From the NCBI GenBank assembly GCA_020050685.1, contig JAGVKG010000004.1, positions 1 to 64,000 of the forward strand: a DNA stretch of 64,000 bases. The letters run 5' to 3'. This document shows positions 33,065 through 54,467 of the stretch, in pieces. The notes under the pieces were generated by a model. It was not told the DNA's origin, searched no databases, and was given only the letters and a program-made list of their open reading frames with translations. This DNA is from Candidatus Obscuribacterales bacterium (GTDB taxonomy: Bacteria > Cyanobacteriota > Vampirovibrionia > Obscuribacterales > Obscuribacteraceae). A program made the translations under genes and the position numbers. Position 1 is the first letter of the stretch, and every line of letters begins with the position of its first letter.

Positions 33065-33904
33065 ATGTCTAAAATAGCTATCATTAGTCAACCGGATCAA
33101 GGTGTCTTGCTCGATGTAAGTGGCTGCCAGTCTTTGGAAGAAGCCACTCAACATCTGACGAGCACGCTCAATGTATCAAGCCAATTTTGGGATGGCTTGA
33201 CCGTGGATTTGAATTTGGGAACACTCAATCTTGCCGGGCACGAAGTCGAACAAATTTTGTCGACAGCGTCTGGGATGGGCGTTGAGTTCGACAAAGTTTT
33301 TACCGAAGATGAAGAGACGGTTTCTTGGTTGAGCCAACGCAACATCAAAGCCAGCCAAGGCAAGCCGACATTTGTGAATGAAGAAACTGAAGAAGACAAA
33401 ACAATTGTCGATGAAGGTTATGAGACGGACGTAGTTGGATTTGCTGGACCCGGATCGGAAAATGCTAATCCGGAAGACGCCGAAGGCAGCCCAAAAGCAC
33501 CGGCCACCAAATCTGGTGCCAAAGCTAAGAAGGGCAAGAAAAGTGCAGCGATAAATAACGGCCCTCAAGTTATGTTCTTACGCCAGACTTTGAGATCCGG
33601 ACAAACGGTCAGTCACAAAGGTCACTTAGTGATTGTTGGTGATGTGAATCCGGGTGCAGAAGTTGTTGCCGATGGTGACATCACAATCTGGGGAGCATTG
33701 CGCGGTGTTGCACACGCTGGTGTGAACGGCAATGTCGATGCCCAAATTCGTGCATTGAAATTACGCCCGATGCAATTGCGCATTGCTCATGCAATTGCTC
33801 GTGCTCCGGACAGACCTCACAATCCAAACATTGGCTATGCCGGTCCTGAAACCGCCAGAATCGTCAATGGACAAATTCGTATCGCAGTAAATCTCCCCGA
33901 ATAA
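33065..33904 (+). CDS. minC: Septum-site inhibitor MinC
   Basis: It blocks FtsZ assembly away from midcell, recruited by MinD. The N-terminal 100 residues are the variable domain. A polar, acidic linker runs to about residue 165. The C-terminal beta-helix begins FLRQTLRSGQTVSHKGHLVIVGDV and contains GAEVVADGDITIWGALRGVAHAG, the most conserved MinC segment (both shortened from context). Length 279 is slightly long because of the linker. AGGACTCCGA precedes the ATG. minD follows after 30 bp. Confidence 0.94.
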   Translation: MSKIAIISQPDQGVLLDVSGCQSLEEATQHLTSTLNVSSQFWDGLTVDLNLGTLNLAGHEVEQILSTASGMGVEFDKVFTEDEETVSWLSQRNIKASQGKPTFVNEETEEDKTIVDEGYETDVVGFAGPGSENANPEDAEGSPKAPATKSGAKAKKGKKSAAINNGPQVMFLRQTLRSGQTVSHKGHLVIVGDVNPGAEVVADGDITIWGALRGVAHAGVNGNVDAQIRALKLRPMQLRIAHAIARAPDRPHNPNIGYAGPETARIVNGQIRIAVNLPE

Positions 33905-33934: not shown

Positions 33935-34747
33935 ATGAGCGGTAGAGTAATTGTAATTACCTCAGGGAAAGGCGGAGTCGGTAAGACTACAGCGTCAGCC
34001 AATATTGGCGTAGCGCTTGCAGGTACCGGTGCCAGTGTTGTGCTTGTCGATATGGATATCGGGTTGCGCAACTTGGACATTCTCATGGGTTTGGAAAACC
34101 GCGTGGTTTACAACCTGGTGGATGTAATTGAAGAGCGCTGCAAGCTGCGTCAAGCATTTGTCAAAGACAAACGTTTGCCAAACCTCTGCTTGTTACCAGC
34201 TGCTCAAACTCGCGACAAGAACGCAGTTAACGCTGAGCAAATGAAGAAGCTCTGCGGCGAACTGAAAGGCATGTTCGATTTTGTTGTCATAGACTGCCCA
34301 GCCGGTATCGAATCCGGATTCCACAATGCAGTTGCCGGTGCCGACGAAGCAATCATTATTACGACTCCGGAAATGTCCGCAGTTCGTGATGCCGATCGCG
34401 TTATCGGACTTCTGGAAGCACGCAAGGATGAAATCAAGGAACAACGCTTGGTCGTTAACAGACTGCGTCCGTCCATGGTTAAGACCAACGACATGATGAG
34501 TGTTGATGACGTTCTAGAAATTCTCTCCGTGAAACTTCTGGGCGTGGTGCCGGAAGACGAGGAAATTATTGTTTCCACCAACCGTGGTGAACCGCTGGCG
34601 GGAAGCGTTAATGAGCGAGCTGGACTTGCTTATAGAAACATTGCCCGTCGTTTGAAAGGCGAAGAAGTTCCAATTATGGATCTTGATGCGCTTGATCAAA
34701 CATGGTTCAAGAAGATAGCAAAGCTATTCACCCCGGCGCGGGCTTAA
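33935..34747 (+). CDS. minD: Septum-site ATPase MinD
   Basis: The deviant Walker A GKGGVGKTT is at residues 11-19, followed by DMDIGLRNLDILMGLENR and the FDFVVIDCPAGIE Walker B region at about 110-122. The C-terminal segment WFKKIAKLFTPARA is a plausible amphipathic membrane-targeting helix. MinD binds the membrane when ATP-loaded, recruits MinC, and is released by MinE. AAAAAGGATCT is the ribosome site. The 270-residue length is normal. Confidence 0.97.
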   Translation: MSGRVIVITSGKGGVGKTTASANIGVALAGTGASVVLVDMDIGLRNLDILMGLENRVVYNLVDVIEERCKLRQAFVKDKRLPNLCLLPAAQTRDKNAVNAEQMKKLCGELKGMFDFVVIDCPAGIESGFHNAVAGADEAIIITTPEMSAVRDADRVIGLLEARKDEIKEQRLVVNRLRPSMVKTNDMMSVDDVLEILSVKLLGVVPEDEEIIVSTNRGEPLAGSVNERAGLAYRNIARRLKGEEVPIMDLDALDQTWFKKIAKLFTPARA

Positions 34748-34760
34748 AGGAGAAAAGACG

Positions 34761-35018
34761 GTGCAAGTTCTCAATTGGTTTTTCCGCAAAAAGGGTGATA
34801 CTGCCAGAACTAAGGCTAAGGATCGAATGCGCCTCATGCTCATTCACGATCGTTTGGAATTACCGCCAGACCGTTTAGCTAGTTTGGAAGAAGAATTGGT
34901 AGCGGTTGTTTCAAGATATTTTGAAATTGATCGTGATACCACGCGCTTTGATCTGCAACAATATGAGCGTAGGGCAGCATTAATTGCTAATTTCCCGTTA
35001 TTGCGCTCTAAGTGTTAG
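34761..35018 (+). CDS. minE: Cell-division topological factor MinE
   Basis: The 85-residue protein starts at GTG (AGGAGAAAAGACG upstream), 13 bp after minD. NWFFRKKGDTARTKAKDRMRLMLIHDRLEL contains the N-terminal amphipathic helix and the MinD-contact strand (residues about 4-33, shortened reading), followed by the dimerisation sheet. MinE stimulates MinD ATPase and drives pole-to-pole oscillation. Confidence 0.95.
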   Translation: MQVLNWFFRKKGDTARTKAKDRMRLMLIHDRLELPPDRLASLEEELVAVVSRYFEIDRDTTRFDLQQYERRAALIANFPLLRSKC

Positions 35019-35043: not shown

Positions 35044-36351
35044 ATCATTCTGCAAAGTACAAGCGAAAAACTCACTGATTCTACGTTTGTAATTCGTAGC
35101 ATTTTCAGACTCCTGTCTGAAGTAGATTGGTGGCTGATTTTAGCGACTGGCTTTTTGGTGGTCGTTGGTCTTTCGACGCTTAAGTTCTCGCATGGCGCGA
35201 CAAGTTTTTACGACAAACAACTTGGCTACCTTTGGGCGGGCATGCTTGCTTGTTTGGTTTTTTGGCGTGTCCCATATTTTGTCTGGACCAACCGGGTTGT
35301 TGTGCCAATTTTGTGGGGCATAAACATGGGCTTGCTCTTGGCAGTTATGCTCAAGGGCCACTCCGCACTTGGTGCACAACGTTGGTTGGCCATCGGCCCA
35401 ATTACCTTGCAGCCATCCGAACTTGCCAAACTCGTGGTCATTTTCACTTTGGCGGCATGGTTCCGCTCAAGACCAATCAAAAGCTTTTTCGATACTTTTA
35501 AAGCCGCAGCAATTATTATTCCGCCGGCAATTTTAGTCTTCAAACAACCAGACCTTGGCACATCGCTGACATTCGGCGCTGTGTTTTTAGGAATGTGCTT
35601 TTGGGCGAGGGCAACACTTTGAGATCTTCTGGTTTTGATCTCACCTGTCTTGAGTTTGATTTTCAATGCGCTCAATCCGCTTTGGTGGCAAGCTTATTTG
35701 ATCTCGCTTGCAGCTACGCTTCTAATTTGGTGGCGCAAGCTTGATTGGAGTTGGTGGGTACGCATACTTTTGATTGTTGCAGTCCTCGGTGCAAATTTTG
35801 CCTGCGGAGAACTGCGTCCACACATGTGGGGCATGTTGAAAGAGTACCAACAAAAACGTTTGGTTAGCTTCCTCAATCCCTATGACGATCCACGTGGTGC
35901 TGGCTATCACATTTTGCAAAGTCTAATTGCAATTGGCTCAGGAGGCTTCTCTGGAGCCGGTCTTGGTCATGGCAATCAAAGCCAAGGTGCATTCATTCCT
36001 GAGCGCCACACAGATTTTATTTTCGCCGTAGTTGGAGAAGAATTGGGTTTCCGCATTTCATCACTTGTGATTCTCGCTTATCTGGTTGTTTGCATACGAG
36101 CCTTGATCATCGCCTATCAAGCCAGAGAAGAACCAGCCGGAAGTTTGATAGCTATTGGTGTCATGTCCATGTTCTTATTCCACGTCTTCCTCAACATCGG
36201 CATGACCATGGGTGTTATGCCAGTTGCCGGTGTGCCGCTGCCATTTCTCAGTTATGGTGGCACAGCACTTGTCGTAGATCTTATGGCAATCGGATTATTA
36301 CAATCTATCCGCTATCTCAATCCCCCACCAAGACAAGACGTCTGGCGATAG
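35044..36351 (+). pseudogene. rodA: rodA (SEDS peptidoglycan polymerase) interrupted by an in-frame TGA
   Basis: Translation in one frame from about 35044 to 36351 gives a complete RodA, with KQPDLGTSLTFGAVFLGM before the break and GAGYHILQSLIAIGSGG, PERHTDFIFAVVGEELG and VPLPFLSYGGTALVV after it. TGA at 35620-35622 interrupts FWARATL-stop-DLLVLISPVLS; by analogy with cyanobacterial RodA a tryptophan (TGG) is expected there. Upstream, no ATG, GTG or TTG opens this frame before the TTG at 35155. A plausible GTG start at 35037 is in another frame and would need removal of one A from the A5 run near 35066-35070. RodA polymerises glycan strands for rod shape. Two lesions suggest decay or sequence error; readthrough is an alternative. 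Confidence 0.8.
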
Positions 36352-37930: not shown

Positions 37931-38578
37931 TCAGTTGACGCAGCCTTGCCGGGCGTATTTGGCGTAGTTCAATAGATCTGTGGGTGAATTGGTGGCTGTG
38001 GCGAGAAATTGATCGATGATTGGTTCTGTTTTGGATGCGCAATTTAAATGCCAGTGACCCAGACCATGTATTGCGCTTTCCTGGCAGGCGATGTGGGGAA
38101 TTTGTAGGGTCTTGGCCATCACTTCTAATATTGCCTCGTCAATCTTTTGTAAATGAGGCTGATCTGGTGCGCCCCAGGAAGGAAAGAGGTCCCACCACAT
38201 GTAGCATATACTGTTCAAGGGGCTCATCTCGGGATCTGGATCTTTCAACAGATACGAGAGTTTCTCCGTACAATTCTTGGCGAATAAATCTGTGAACACG
38301 TGTTCAATTGCCGTGATGCAATTTATTCGAGCTTGAAGTGGGATATCTTCACGGAATAAAAGATTCGGCGGACCCAATTCTCCGAGCAAGCACCAGAACA
38401 TCGTGTTAAGTGCGTCTGCGGTGTATGTTTGAATCAACTTGCCGGATGATCTGAATAACTGTCCCATCTGTTCGACTGTATTGGTCGGATCAATTTCCCA
38501 GTCGACTTCGTACGGATCCTCTATTAAATAGAGCACCCAATCTTCGAAACTCAAAGTATTTCCTGCCAATCGATCCAC
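37931..38578 (-). CDS. Unknown alpha-helical protein
   Basis: The 215-residue cytoplasmic-type protein begins at GTG directly after the TAA of the upstream gene. It is rich in aromatic residues and helices, for example NSICYMWWDLFPSWG at about residues 122-136 and an AIHGLGHWHLN segment near 172, reminiscent of HEAT-like armadillo turns. No domain recognised. Coupling to the upstream gene suggests a shared function. Confidence 0.6.
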   Translation of the reverse strand: MDRLAGNTLSFEDWVLYLIEDPYEVDWEIDPTNTVEQMGQLFRSSGKLIQTYTADALNTMFWCLLGELGPPNLLFREDIPLQARINCITAIEHVFTDLFAKNCTEKLSYLLKDPDPEMSPLNSICYMWWDLFPSWGAPDQPHLQKIDEAILEVMAKTLQIPHIACQESAIHGLGHWHLNCASKTEPIIDQFLATATNSPTDLLNYAKYARQGCVN

Positions 38579-39142
38579 TTAGGGTTCGAAGGTAGCGGCT
38601 TTCTTTGGCCAAACGACTTTGACAAGATTGCTTTCATCGTGGCTGTTTTCGAAGGCGTCGATCTGCTGAGTCGATGGTGCCATAGCGGAAAGCTTGCTTG
38701 ATTTGCCGAGCGTGACCATCTTGTCCAATACGGTGAACGTCTCTTCAACGTGACGTGCAAGCGCCCGACCTTGCGGTGCGATTTGCTCGACAGTGCCATC
38801 CAAGAATACATGCGACTCTACGCCGCCAATTGGTTGCGCTTGCGGATCCGGATTGTGTCCATCTTGCCATACGCATTGAAAACGCAATTTCAAGGGAGAA
38901 CCCGGCTTGGCTAAAAGCCAAAGCGTTCTGCGAAATCCATGAGTGTTGATTGTCAGTTCGCCAACTAATTCGTCGAAGCTTTCCGGACCTTGTGGCAGAA
39001 GACCTTGAATGCGACCGGCTGGTACACCAAGCTCATTGGCTAACAATTCGACGAGCCCAACAAATGCTGCTACTCCTTGCAAATCGATTGTCTTTCCAAG
39101 GTTGGCCTTTTGACCAGCGAAGTTGTTTGATTGTGACAGCAT
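38579..39142 (-). CDS. Unknown cytoplasmic protein
   Basis: The 187-residue protein starts at ATG after GTAGGTGCACT. The N-terminal half includes LQGVAAFVGLVELLANELGVPAGRI, a predicted helix pair. The remainder is mixed, and the C-terminus contains PKKAATFEP. No signal peptide and no family recognised. It forms a two-gene operon with the following gene, with no base between stop and start. Confidence 0.6.
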   Translation of the reverse strand: MLSQSNNFAGQKANLGKTIDLQGVAAFVGLVELLANELGVPAGRIQGLLPQGPESFDELVGELTINTHGFRRTLWLLAKPGSPLKLRFQCVWQDGHNPDPQAQPIGGVESHVFLDGTVEQIAPQGRALARHVEETFTVLDKMVTLGKSSKLSAMAPSTQQIDAFENSHDESNLVKVVWPKKAATFEP

Positions 39143-49827: not shown

Positions 49828-52596
49828 TCAGTGTACAGTGGAAAGGCTGCCGTTATGTGTGCCCGAGATGTTTTTCTTGGCTGGAAGACTGAGAACTCTG
49901 TATTTGCCAGGCAACTTAGAATATTGTTCGAGAATGGACTTGCGGATCAAATTGTAGTGTTCAATTTCTACGGTATGTGATGCAACCTTCCGCTCGTTGC
50001 TCAGGTGGGCAAATGATTGCTTAAACCACGTTTGGGCAAGTGCGCCATTGTTTCTGCGGAGGCATAATTCTGCAACGTCGGCGGAAAGTTTTGCTAGTGC
50101 AAGTTGCCTTGATGCGTAGATTCGTTCTTTGCTTAGTGTAGAAGTGCGAGGTAGCGGCCAGCATGTTCCGACAAGGCACGGCTCCTCGAAGGATGGAAAA
50201 ACAGGAGCGCATACTGTGGGTTCGACTCTCTCTGAACCGTCGGTTGCTTTGTATGGTATAGGATCTCTTGCCCCGATCAGTCGAGAAGTCACTGTTCCGG
50301 CCGTATTTACTCCTTGAATAATTGTGGTGTCACCACCCTGAGGTCCAATTGTCCCGTTGGTTGATTGCATTAGTATCAGGGTGTCATCCTCCGGTACTTG
50401 AACATAGGCTCGTTCATAAATACCACTCGAATTGTTATCATACGAAATCGCGTCTGGCCTTGAAACAGAAGCAATTAGGTCTTTGGTTGTCTGTTCAGCT
50501 TTATCTTGCCTTCCAGTATTGGCATAGATAGAAGCCAACTCGTAAAGGTCAGCGAATGTATCTTGACCTAACCAATACGATTGTCTAAATTTGTCTGGCA
50601 CTGTAGGCTTTAGAATCGCTTCTGCTTCTTTGTATCGCTTGGCTGTTAGATACAATTGTGTGAGCTTTCTTGAGACCATCCTTTCTTGCCATTCAGTGTG
50701 ACAGTTGTTCCAAAATTCATTATAGAGATCGATTGCGCGCTCGGGATGTCCTAATTTGATCTCGAGATCTGCGAGTCTATCTATATCATTTGCGGCTTCG
50801 TAAAATTCAGAAGTAGTCGAGGCAAAAGACTTAACCTTGGTCGGTTGTTTCTCTATCAAGGAAGTATCGGGAGGGCTAAATCCGAAGGGATCAGTTTTCT
50901 TTGATGTGTCTAGAACATCAAAAGCAATTTGATCAGTTGATTTGTCGACCACACTTGGAGTGGATGAATCCGATAGCTTTGGGAAATACTTCAGCACAAG
51001 CATTGAGTAATAAGATTCTGCTTGTGAAAGTTGATTTTGATCTTCGTATGATGCGCCTAACAAGCGAAGTGTCTTCTGCACTTCTTTGTCGCTTGCTTTA
51101 ATAGTATTCAACCGCACAAGGCGCAAATTCAATAACTCTATGGCCTTAGTGTAGTTTTTCTGTGAAAGGTAATGCGATGCAAGATCTTCCAGATCATTGG
51201 CAAACAATAGTCTGTCATCGCCTTTGAAGTCTCGTTCAACTGCTTCTGCTAGCATTACTTCTGCTTCGTTCGGCCTATTTTCCAGTGAGTACACATCTGT
51301 GAGATTTTGTCTTACTGTGCGTGCAATAGGATCGTGTAATTTGACCCTTATGGCAAGCGCCCGCTTAAGCAAATCTTCTGCCTGCGAATATTCTTTGTGC
51401 CTTACATAAAATGAAGCGACATGACTCAAGCAGTTAGCCATGTCAGGGTCATCTATTTCCTTTCCGTTTTCATATCTTGCCATCAATTTCTTGTAGGTGT
51501 CTTCCGCTTCTTTGAGTTTTCCTTGCTTAACTAGGACAGCTTCCAGATCATGTAAGGTTTCTAGCGTTTTGGGATTTAAGGCCCCGATGGTTTGTATTTG
51601 TAATGAGAGAAGTTCTCGATTAGCAGTCTCAGCAGTTGAAAAACTATTTTGCGCCATGGCAAATGAAAGGTACGATTGTAAAAGATGGCCAACCAGTTCG
51701 TTATTGGGCCCGTACGCATTTCTTGCGGCGGAAATTGCATTCTTGTATAAGTTGTTTGCACGATCACGAGCTCCATGGTTGGCATAAATTTTGGCAGTAG
51801 TTGCTAAATCGGAAGTCAATTCAGCCATAAAGAAATCAAGATTTGGAAGTTCTGGTGGTAACCATGCCGATTTGGAGCCGGGTGTATTTATCCTGACGAA
51901 AATTGCTTTTTCAAAACAGTCCGCTGCTTGCAAATATCTATGCTGCATGTAATAACAATCACCGAGCCAATTAAAATCGGTGGCTCTGTTACTTTTCTCT
52001 TCAAATAAATTTCCGCCATCCATTGTTGTAAGCTTGGAAAAGATTTTTGTAGCAAGCGGGTATTTGCGCTTGCCGTAGTAACGCATGCCAATTTCTCTTA
52101 GCTCAGCAAGTGTGCCAGTAACTCTCTTGCCATTTTCAATAACGTTGTAGGCAAAATTGAACTGGATAGCAACGGACTCTGGTGCGCCGTTTGGCAGAGG
52201 GCGAAATGGTGCTGATTGTCGCACTGCTCTCAGTGCGGCTTGTCCTGCTGCGGGATTTGGGAGGACAGTATCCGCCGAAGGCGCCAAACGCAGTTGTGAG
52301 ATGTGACCGTCCGCATGTATATCAAACAGTACCTGAATGTTGCGTGACAGTTCATCCTTGGGTGCATTCCAGACCTTTTTAATGCGCTTCTGGATATCAG
52401 CCATATAAGGACCAAAGTCGACTTCCGCTTTTGCCGGCTTGCTATTTGATTTGGCTTCCTCTGGCTTATTGGGATGAAAGCCGTATGCTGGAAGCCCAGG
52501 CTGCTCGCCCTCGGCTTGCGCTCGTCCGGGAGCCTGCGTGCTAAGCAAGCTCAATAATATGAATGTTGAGGCTAACCAGGCATGCTGTTGGCGCAT
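49828..52596 (-). CDS. Large TonB-C/TPR protein carrying the NTAGT motif
   Basis: The longest frame starts at 52695. The ATG at 52596 gives a protein of about 922 residues with a signal peptide ending near PGRAQA. A TonB C-terminal-like domain (KVWNAPKDELSRNIQVLFDIHADG) sits near the start of the mature protein. About 15 TPR-like helices follow. Residues 784-802 of the longest frame read GPQGGDTTIIQGVNTAGTV, the motif that begins the mature form of two small membrane proteins encoded divergently 5 kb away. The C-terminal 100 residues return to TPR helices. Third gene of a minus-strand set. Role inferred: periplasmic scaffold that may recruit or mimic those small proteins. Confidence 0.75.
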   Translation of the reverse strand: MRQQHAWLASTFILLSLLSTQAPGRAQAEGEQPGLPAYGFHPNKPEEAKSNSKPAKAEVDFGPYMADIQKRIKKVWNAPKDELSRNIQVLFDIHADGHISQLRLAPSADTVLPNPAAGQAALRAVRQSAPFRPLPNGAPESVAIQFNFAYNVIENGKRVTGTLAELREIGMRYYGKRKYPLATKIFSKLTTMDGGNLFEEKSNRATDFNWLGDCYYMQHRYLQAADCFEKAIFVRINTPGSKSAWLPPELPNLDFFMAELTSDLATTAKIYANHGARDRANNLYKNAISAARNAYGPNNELVGHLLQSYLSFAMAQNSFSTAETANRELLSLQIQTIGALNPKTLETLHDLEAVLVKQGKLKEAEDTYKKLMARYENGKEIDDPDMANCLSHVASFYVRHKEYSQAEDLLKRALAIRVKLHDPIARTVRQNLTDVYSLENRPNEAEVMLAEAVERDFKGDDRLLFANDLEDLASHYLSQKNYTKAIELLNLRLVRLNTIKASDKEVQKTLRLLGASYEDQNQLSQAESYYSMLVLKYFPKLSDSSTPSVVDKSTDQIAFDVLDTSKKTDPFGFSPPDTSLIEKQPTKVKSFASTTSEFYEAANDIDRLADLEIKLGHPERAIDLYNEFWNNCHTEWQERMVSRKLTQLYLTAKRYKEAEAILKPTVPDKFRQSYWLGQDTFADLYELASIYANTGRQDKAEQTTKDLIASVSRPDAISYDNNSSGIYERAYVQVPEDDTLILMQSTNGTIGPQGGDTTIIQGVNTAGTVTSRLIGARDPIPYKATDGSERVEPTVCAPVFPSFEEPCLVGTCWPLPRTSTLSKERIYASRQLALAKLSADVAELCLRRNNGALAQTWFKQSFAHLSNERKVASHTVEIEHYNLIRKSILEQYSKLPGKYRVLSLPAKKNISGTHNGSLSTVH

Positions 52597-52710
52597 AGTG
52601 CGGCAAGTACCAAACAAATTAGTTTTGATCTCTTTAGTAATATGTGCGGAAAAAGTGCGTAAGCCCATTCTGCTCGGATCACTTGAGCTTGTCAAGTAAA
52701 ATGTAAACGT

Positions 52711-53232
52711 TCATGATTCAAGATAGCCACAGGCTTTGTTTGGATCAATTGGTGGCAATGGCTCAATGGGCTTTTTGGACGCCAGTATCGCTGAAATAAC
52801 CAGAGCCATAATCGCTCCTGTAATCGAGCCGAATAAAAAGATGTGAGCTTGGCTGGAGAGCAAAAGCGCGAGCCTACCACCAATCAATAGTCCGGCAATC
52901 AGCGCTGATGCAAACTTAGCTTGCGGACTAAATTTCTCAAGCGTTGAAAGTGCATAGAAAACACCAAGAAATGTTCCCAATGCCGAGCCGAATCGGGCGG
53001 CGCCAAGAAAGGTGAAGTTGTGCCAGCTGATCACAGCATCAATAATTGAGGCATGATTGTCCGTCGTTGCGCTTATCTGATTTGACAGTTGAGGAATGAC
53101 TGGCAGACCACTACCAAAATTTCTCATCCAATCCAAAACATCCCAAAGCAAAGCCATGATGATCACAAAGCCTGTGGTAATCAGAAGAACACGTGCAATT
53201 GCAATTATTGGTTCAATAAGATAGTTTCTCAT
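52711..53232 (-). CDS. Small polytopic membrane protein
   Basis: The 173-residue protein has four predicted helices: about residues 10-30, 72-93, 106-125 and 130-148. The loop between the first two is long, polar and periplasmic. A short proline-rich cytoplasmic tail ends DPNKACGYLES. It shares four bases (ATGA) with the preceding TPR membrane gene and precedes the TonB-C/TPR gene by a short gap. No family recognised. Confidence 0.65.
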   Translation of the reverse strand: MRNYLIEPIIAIARVLLITTGFVIIMALLWDVLDWMRNFGSGLPVIPQLSNQISATTDNHASIIDAVISWHNFTFLGAARFGSALGTFLGVFYALSTLEKFSPQAKFASALIAGLLIGGRLALLLSSQAHIFLFGSITGAIMALVISAILASKKPIEPLPPIDPNKACGYLES

Positions 53233-54467
53233 TTCTTTTCCTCCACAGAGTCACTCTCCTGCTTTATGTGTATCTGTGTAAGTACAATTTTTGCTAGATT
53301 GTTTTTTGGATCCATGCTCAATACCTTTTGCGCCAAACTTCTTGCTTGTTCATCAAGTCCAAGCTGATGAGACAATTGCGCGCAGGCGCTCAAGGAATTT
53401 GCGTCTTGGTTGCTTAAATGTGTGGCAGTAGAAAGGGTATCAATTGCTTCTTGTTTTTTGCCGTCTTGCAAAAATAGCTGAGTAAGATAAATGTATGATT
53501 GGGGATTATGTGGCGCAAGTCTTGTGCATTGTGTCAGCAGTCTGATTGCCTCAGGGTTTTGGTGCTTGGCGATGTAGACGCAAGATAGTCCAAGTTTTGC
53601 TTCAACAAGATCAGGTTTGACTAATAGCGCTTTTAGCCAATCTCGTTCTGCTTGATCGATATTCCCCAAATTGTATTCGCAACGCGCCAGCTGATCCCAC
53701 GCCATGGCAAAAGTTGGATCGGTCGCGGCTGATGCTCGGAAGTGTTTCTTGGCGCTGAGATAATCAGAACTTGCAAATGATTTGCGTCCAAGATTGTATT
53801 CAGAATTTACAAAAGTCTTGCGCGCTAAAAACGAAACCAAGCTGATTACGATAATTGCCGAGAGCAGGAGTCTCATTTTTGCAATACGCAGGTAGAGCTT
53901 CTTCACTGCTCCAGTTTCAGATAATGGCAGCACGAGAAATTGCAGACCGTTGGGAACGAAACCAAAAACTCTGCTGGATACATGCCATATTAAGGAACGA
54001 AACTCCGGCAATAGAAATAAATATGATGGCAAATGCACAGGCTCTAGTTTCTCACCAGCTCTTTTGACATAAAGAGTGAAGCGTAATACCGGTGCTTTGA
54101 GAAAAAATGCGCGTGCAAATATTTTTTGTTGCTCAGTGCCCATCGCGGAAATTGATTGCCACGCTATGACTTTGCCGAAGCGCCAGAGTTTTATTCCATT
54201 GCCATCAATAATAATTGGGCCAGTGAGAATTCGAATGATGTGAATAAGACCAAGGAATCCGCAAAACCAGAGTACCAATGCTGTGAGCCATAGACCGACA
54301 AGACGCATGGCCCAAATGCCTAAACTGGGAGCAATCGGGAAAAGTGAAAAGGCGTCTGGAATGCACATGAGCGTGGCAATTGTGCAAGAACTGCCGAGCG
54401 CAAGCTTCACTAACGCTTTGGGATTTGAACTAAGTTGGTAGGGTCCGAAGTTGTTCACGTGTGGCAA
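53229..54467 (-). CDS. Membrane protein with PH-like domain and C-terminal TPRs
   Basis: The 412-residue protein has hydrophobic helices at about residues 25-45, 48-85 and 200-218. The segment of about 85-150 (IIIDGNGIKLWRFGKVIAWQSISAMG) resembles a bacterial PH-like beta domain on the cytoplasmic face. After the last helix come five TPR units up to about 400, predicted periplasmic. Start is TTG at 54467 or GTG at 54458; ribosome site weak. First gene of the minus-strand set that faces the small-protein operon. Confidence 0.65.
   Translation of the reverse strand: MPHVNNFGPYQLSSNPKALVKLALGSSCTIATLMCIPDAFSLFPIAPSLGIWAMRLVGLWLTALVLWFCGFLGLIHIIRILTGPIIIDGNGIKLWRFGKVIAWQSISAMGTEQQKIFARAFFLKAPVLRFTLYVKRAGEKLEPVHLPSYLFLLPEFRSLIWHVSSRVFGFVPNGLQFLVLPLSETGAVKKLYLRIAKMRLLLSAIIVISLVSFLARKTFVNSEYNLGRKSFASSDYLSAKKHFRASAATDPTFAMAWDQLARCEYNLGNIDQAERDWLKALLVKPDLVEAKLGLSCVYIAKHQNPEAIRLLTQCTRLAPHNPQSYIYLTQLFLQDGKKQEAIDTLSTATHLSNQDANSLSACAQLSHQLGLDEQARSLAQKVLSMDPKNNLAKIVLTQIHIKQESDSVEEKK

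Follow-up and report, generated by a model that had tools for sequence, protein, structure and literature searches.

A single in-frame TGA in an otherwise normally evolving rodA gene of an uncultured Obscuribacterales bacterium

The rodA gene described here is most probably (about 0.88) a normal Obscuribacterales rodA that carries one isolated, young nonsense lesion, caused by an error of the consensus or by strain mixture, or else by a mutation of very recent date. It lies in the window, a stretch of 64,000 nt from contig C5 of a 4.2-Mb genome (70 contigs, completeness 98.7%, contamination 3.0%), which is most closely related to other uncultured members of the Obscuribacterales (Vampirovibrionia, 'Melainabacteria'). 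Directly visible in the sequences are the stop itself, the intact conservation of the remaining gene and the absence of the stop from all relatives. As the gene is written, the TGA would act as a plain stop and give a truncated RodA of about 190 residues, which would presumably be inactive; the lesion falls on a non-conserved codon and is likely to be young or not real.

We examined the identity of the gene and found, in agreement with the original prediction, that one + strand frame encodes RodA on either side of the TGA. PF01098 matches flank the stop on both sides and, with the TGA read through, reach 280.9 bits in two stretches. The reading frame is thus interrupted, by the TGA at 35620. 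The protein is 72-73% identical to its nearest relatives in a comparison set that extends to other genera; compared with the two SEDS copies of family members, it shares 63-76% identity with the first and about 40% with the second. By sequence comparison, the window gene is a RodA orthologue and FtsW is excluded. A look for a second rodA or ftsW, which had been proposed, showed that the genome has just one other SEDS gene, an intact FtsW that lies close to a MurD-like gene on contig C4. The window rodA follows minC, minD and minE (Table 1), and the minE-rodA order is the same in most family members. The gene therefore resembles other Obscuribacterales RodAs (PF01098; for example L005, L034 and L049) in identity, length and usual place downstream of minE, but differs from them in its TGA codon, in a CTG instead of an ATG, GTG or TTG start and in the substitution G189R. 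One of these relatives, L034 (SBAT01000170.1), is a typical Obscuribacterales rodA in a metagenome-assembled genome labelled Chloroflexi, a label that is probably wrong.

Table 1. Positions in the window of rodA, its unusual features and the upstream min genes
Feature	Position	Strand	Basis or remark
minC-like gene, intact, upstream of rodA	33065..33904	+	Open reading frame; name from reading the sequence
minD, intact	33935..34747	+	Open reading frame; name from reading the sequence
minE, intact	34761..35018	+	Open reading frame
rodA (SEDS glycosyltransferase), 433 codons, one in-frame TGA	35050..36351	+	PF01098, identity to relatives, start by comparison
AGG (Arg); Gly in all 29 other aligned sequences (order and class)	35608..35610	+	
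In-frame TGA, residue 193 when the frame is numbered from 35044	35620..35622	+	All relatives have a sense codon
Perfect 7-bp inverted repeat, TGAGATC-10 nt-GATCTCA, TGA in left arm	35620..35643	.	

The original prediction expected a tryptophan at the stop. Among 45 distinct Obscuribacterales RodA sequences, however, the column is variable (T 16, A 7, C 6, M 4, V 4, F 3, L 2, G 2, S 1) and contains neither a tryptophan nor a stop; every rodA locus of the order that we examined has a sense codon here, none of them for Trp, and in the three nearest relatives the codon is ACA or ACC, for Thr. TGA closes 38 of the 183 long ORFs in the 431 kb sampled and is an ordinary stop in this genome, as had been claimed. 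Hence, a recoding of TGA as Trp is rejected, both on the relatives without tryptophan and on the common use of TGA as a stop.

A frameshift near the N-terminus, caused by an extra A in an A5 run, had also been proposed as a possibility. CTG is permitted as a start codon, though it is uncommon. In relatives, the start codon (ATG, GTG or TTG) lies 22-26 codons before a conserved Asp, and the window frame is open up to a CTG at 35050, 25 codons upstream of the same residue. The N-terminal sequences can be aligned (L005, LRSLFRLLSEMDWW; window, IRSIFRLLSEVDWW), whereas the frame that begins at GTG 35037 reads VVDHSAKYKRKTH and then meets a stop, with nothing similar in relatives. CTG 35050 is therefore the probable start of rodA, its use being deduced from the position of the relatives' starts. 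As the frame already reaches the homologous start position, no frameshift is called for, and an indel in the A5 run is unneeded.

We then looked for signs of decay in the rest of the gene. Three of the 136 columns that are invariant in 23 relatives deviate in the window RodA, which is at the top of the range seen in intact relatives (0-3); one of them is the radical change G189R, four codons before the stop. The terminal branch leading to the window sequence has a length of 0.26, equal to the tree median, and the codon-position change ratios upstream and downstream of the stop are 0.31 and 0.29, within or close to the range of the other branches (0.18-0.38). At the Obscuribacterales loci examined, the full-length rodA copies of relatives are all intact. 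By these sequence measures, the window rodA is not measurably decayed. An old pseudogene is rejected, since the rate is not raised and the codon-position bias is kept; apart from the stop and G189R, the gene evolves normally, from which it follows that the lesion is either young or not real.

To place this stop among others in the assembly, 431 kb were scanned for stops within a frame, and 544 same-frame stop pairs were reduced by a coding-score filter to 33 candidates. Pfam was run on 29 candidates alongside rodA, leaving out two that cross stretch borders and the one at 33902, which is the plain minC-minD junction. In none of the 29 other candidates did a domain run across the stop, a few of them being uninformative as they have no Pfam match at all, and most resemble neighbouring genes that share a frame. 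The codon-score scan lacks sensitivity for membrane genes, to the point that rodA falls just below its filter, and the rarity of such stops is therefore a rough bound. Two further places in the window were noted, both on the - strand. At 37931-39142, frames of 187 and 215 aa without a Pfam match are split by a TAA at 38581 with a GTG directly after it, and may represent either a single broken gene or two genes. At 49828-53250, two ORFs share a frame on either side of a TGA at 52713; the second has a probable signal peptide and later a repeat-rich sequence, so that the pair looks like two adjacent genes.

Within the preferred reading of an isolated young lesion, the odds are about even that the TGA is a consensus or strain-mixture error of a draft metagenome assembly and that, in the living cells, a sense codon stands at 35620. 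In favour of an error are the usual essentiality of RodA in rods, the intact gene of all relatives whose copy is full-length, the lack of any other sign of decay and an assembly of 70 contigs that apparently lacks at least one conserved block. The case resembles other isolated nonsense lesions and consensus errors in draft metagenome assemblies, where a lone in-frame stop breaks a conserved gene and is absent from relatives. Against an error, the 431-kb scan found no other in-frame stop that breaks a domain, suggesting that the consensus is not generally poor, and a single error sits uneasily with the CTG start, G189R and the inverted repeat at the stop all occurring in one gene; these oddities could be early decay instead. 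Only 1.1% of the TGA triplets in the window sit in such an inverted repeat, a figure obtained post hoc, and with the same post hoc character it is conceivable that the TGA arose in the repeat by template switching or is a sequencing artefact at the hairpin. Against the preferred reading as a whole, the nearest relatives have ACA or ACC, so that at least two changes separate their codons from TGA.

That rodA was really and recently inactivated, perhaps in the course of losing the elongasome, has a somewhat less than even chance. The odd CTG start and G189R speak for it, and so does the absence from the window genome of MreB, which is present in 22 of the 23 other family members, and of MreC and a mrdA-type PBP2, both found in each of the 14 other family members that were searched. 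The normal codon evolution of RodA speaks against it, as does the wider extent of what is missing. According to names read from the sequences, the mreB-mreC-mreD-mrdA genes of relatives adjoin a 3-hydroxyacyl-CoA dehydrogenase gene, with ispF nearby and usually also biotin-carboxylase-like and M20 peptidase genes. Orthologues of the 3-hydroxyacyl-CoA dehydrogenase, IspF and the M20 peptidase were not found in the window genome, the IspF search being one without a positive control in the same search, whereas the genome does have IspG, a member of the essential pathway to which IspF also belongs. The M20 peptidase-ispF-3-hydroxyacyl-CoA dehydrogenase-mreBCD-mrdA block is thus apparently missing despite the high estimated completeness. 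Because ispF and its neighbours are missing too while IspG is kept, the missing mre block is most simply a single assembly or binning gap, which is likelier than a loss of the elongasome. It is accordingly unlikely that the lineage is dismantling its lateral-wall machinery, with mreBCD-mrdA deleted together with neighbours and rodA just hit by a nonsense mutation; this would need a true and tolerated loss of ispF, a doubtful condition. In summary, on the sequence alone, an error is put only slightly ahead of a recent mutation, on the grounds that all relatives have an intact rodA and that the window gene has no other strong mark of decay.

Readthrough or decoding of the UGA, for instance as selenocysteine, which would give a full-length RodA, is very improbable. 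The genome has a tRNA-Sec gene with a TCA anticodon (69.7 bits; G000:C34:12285-12379, L168:8286-8384) beside rpoB, from which it is predicted that it probably makes selenoproteins, and selenocysteine decoding is therefore possible in principle. Like bacterial selenoproteins, the window rodA has an in-frame UGA, a tRNA-Sec in its genome and Cys in some homologues; unlike them, it has no SECIS-like hairpin, no conserved Cys and no UGA in relatives. Cys, which would be expected in most homologues of a selenoprotein, occupies the column in 6 of the 45 distinct relatives, Thr is the commonest residue and the one in the nearest relatives, and the variable column is not a redox site. Published constraints on bacterial SECIS elements comprise a spacing of 16-37 nt, a G in the first two loop positions and an MFE <= -7.5 kcal/mol (PMC13188914). 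No hairpin meeting these constraints follows the TGA at 35620; the best candidate has +1.0 kcal/mol, a score equalled or bettered at half of random TGAs, and an Rfam search gave no match. The inverted repeat was rejected as a SECIS, since it begins at the TGA codon itself and is too close. Selenocysteine at 35620 is rejected for want of a SECIS and of conservation. Of the three causes listed in the original prediction, which was the right list, error and recent loss stand, whereas readthrough finds no support at the site.

A split gene with both halves made and working together is the least probable reading, as a TTG at 35635, four codons past the TGA, is offset by the lack of any relative with a split rodA, by a cut inside a single integral membrane domain and by the absence, on inspection, of an evident ribosome-binding site before 35635.

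The TGA is most likely explained by a sequence error of the ordinary kind or by a mutation that happened very recently, and a novel decoding of the codon is unlikely; a literature search returned nothing specific to the case. As it stands, the finding has little significance, single stop codons being commonplace in draft genomes. If the stop is real and the mre block truly deleted, however, the genome would show an uncultured sister lineage of cyanobacteria in the act of losing its rod-growth machinery, and such a dismantling would be a natural example of how MreB-type growth is lost, within a family whose members nearly all have MreB.
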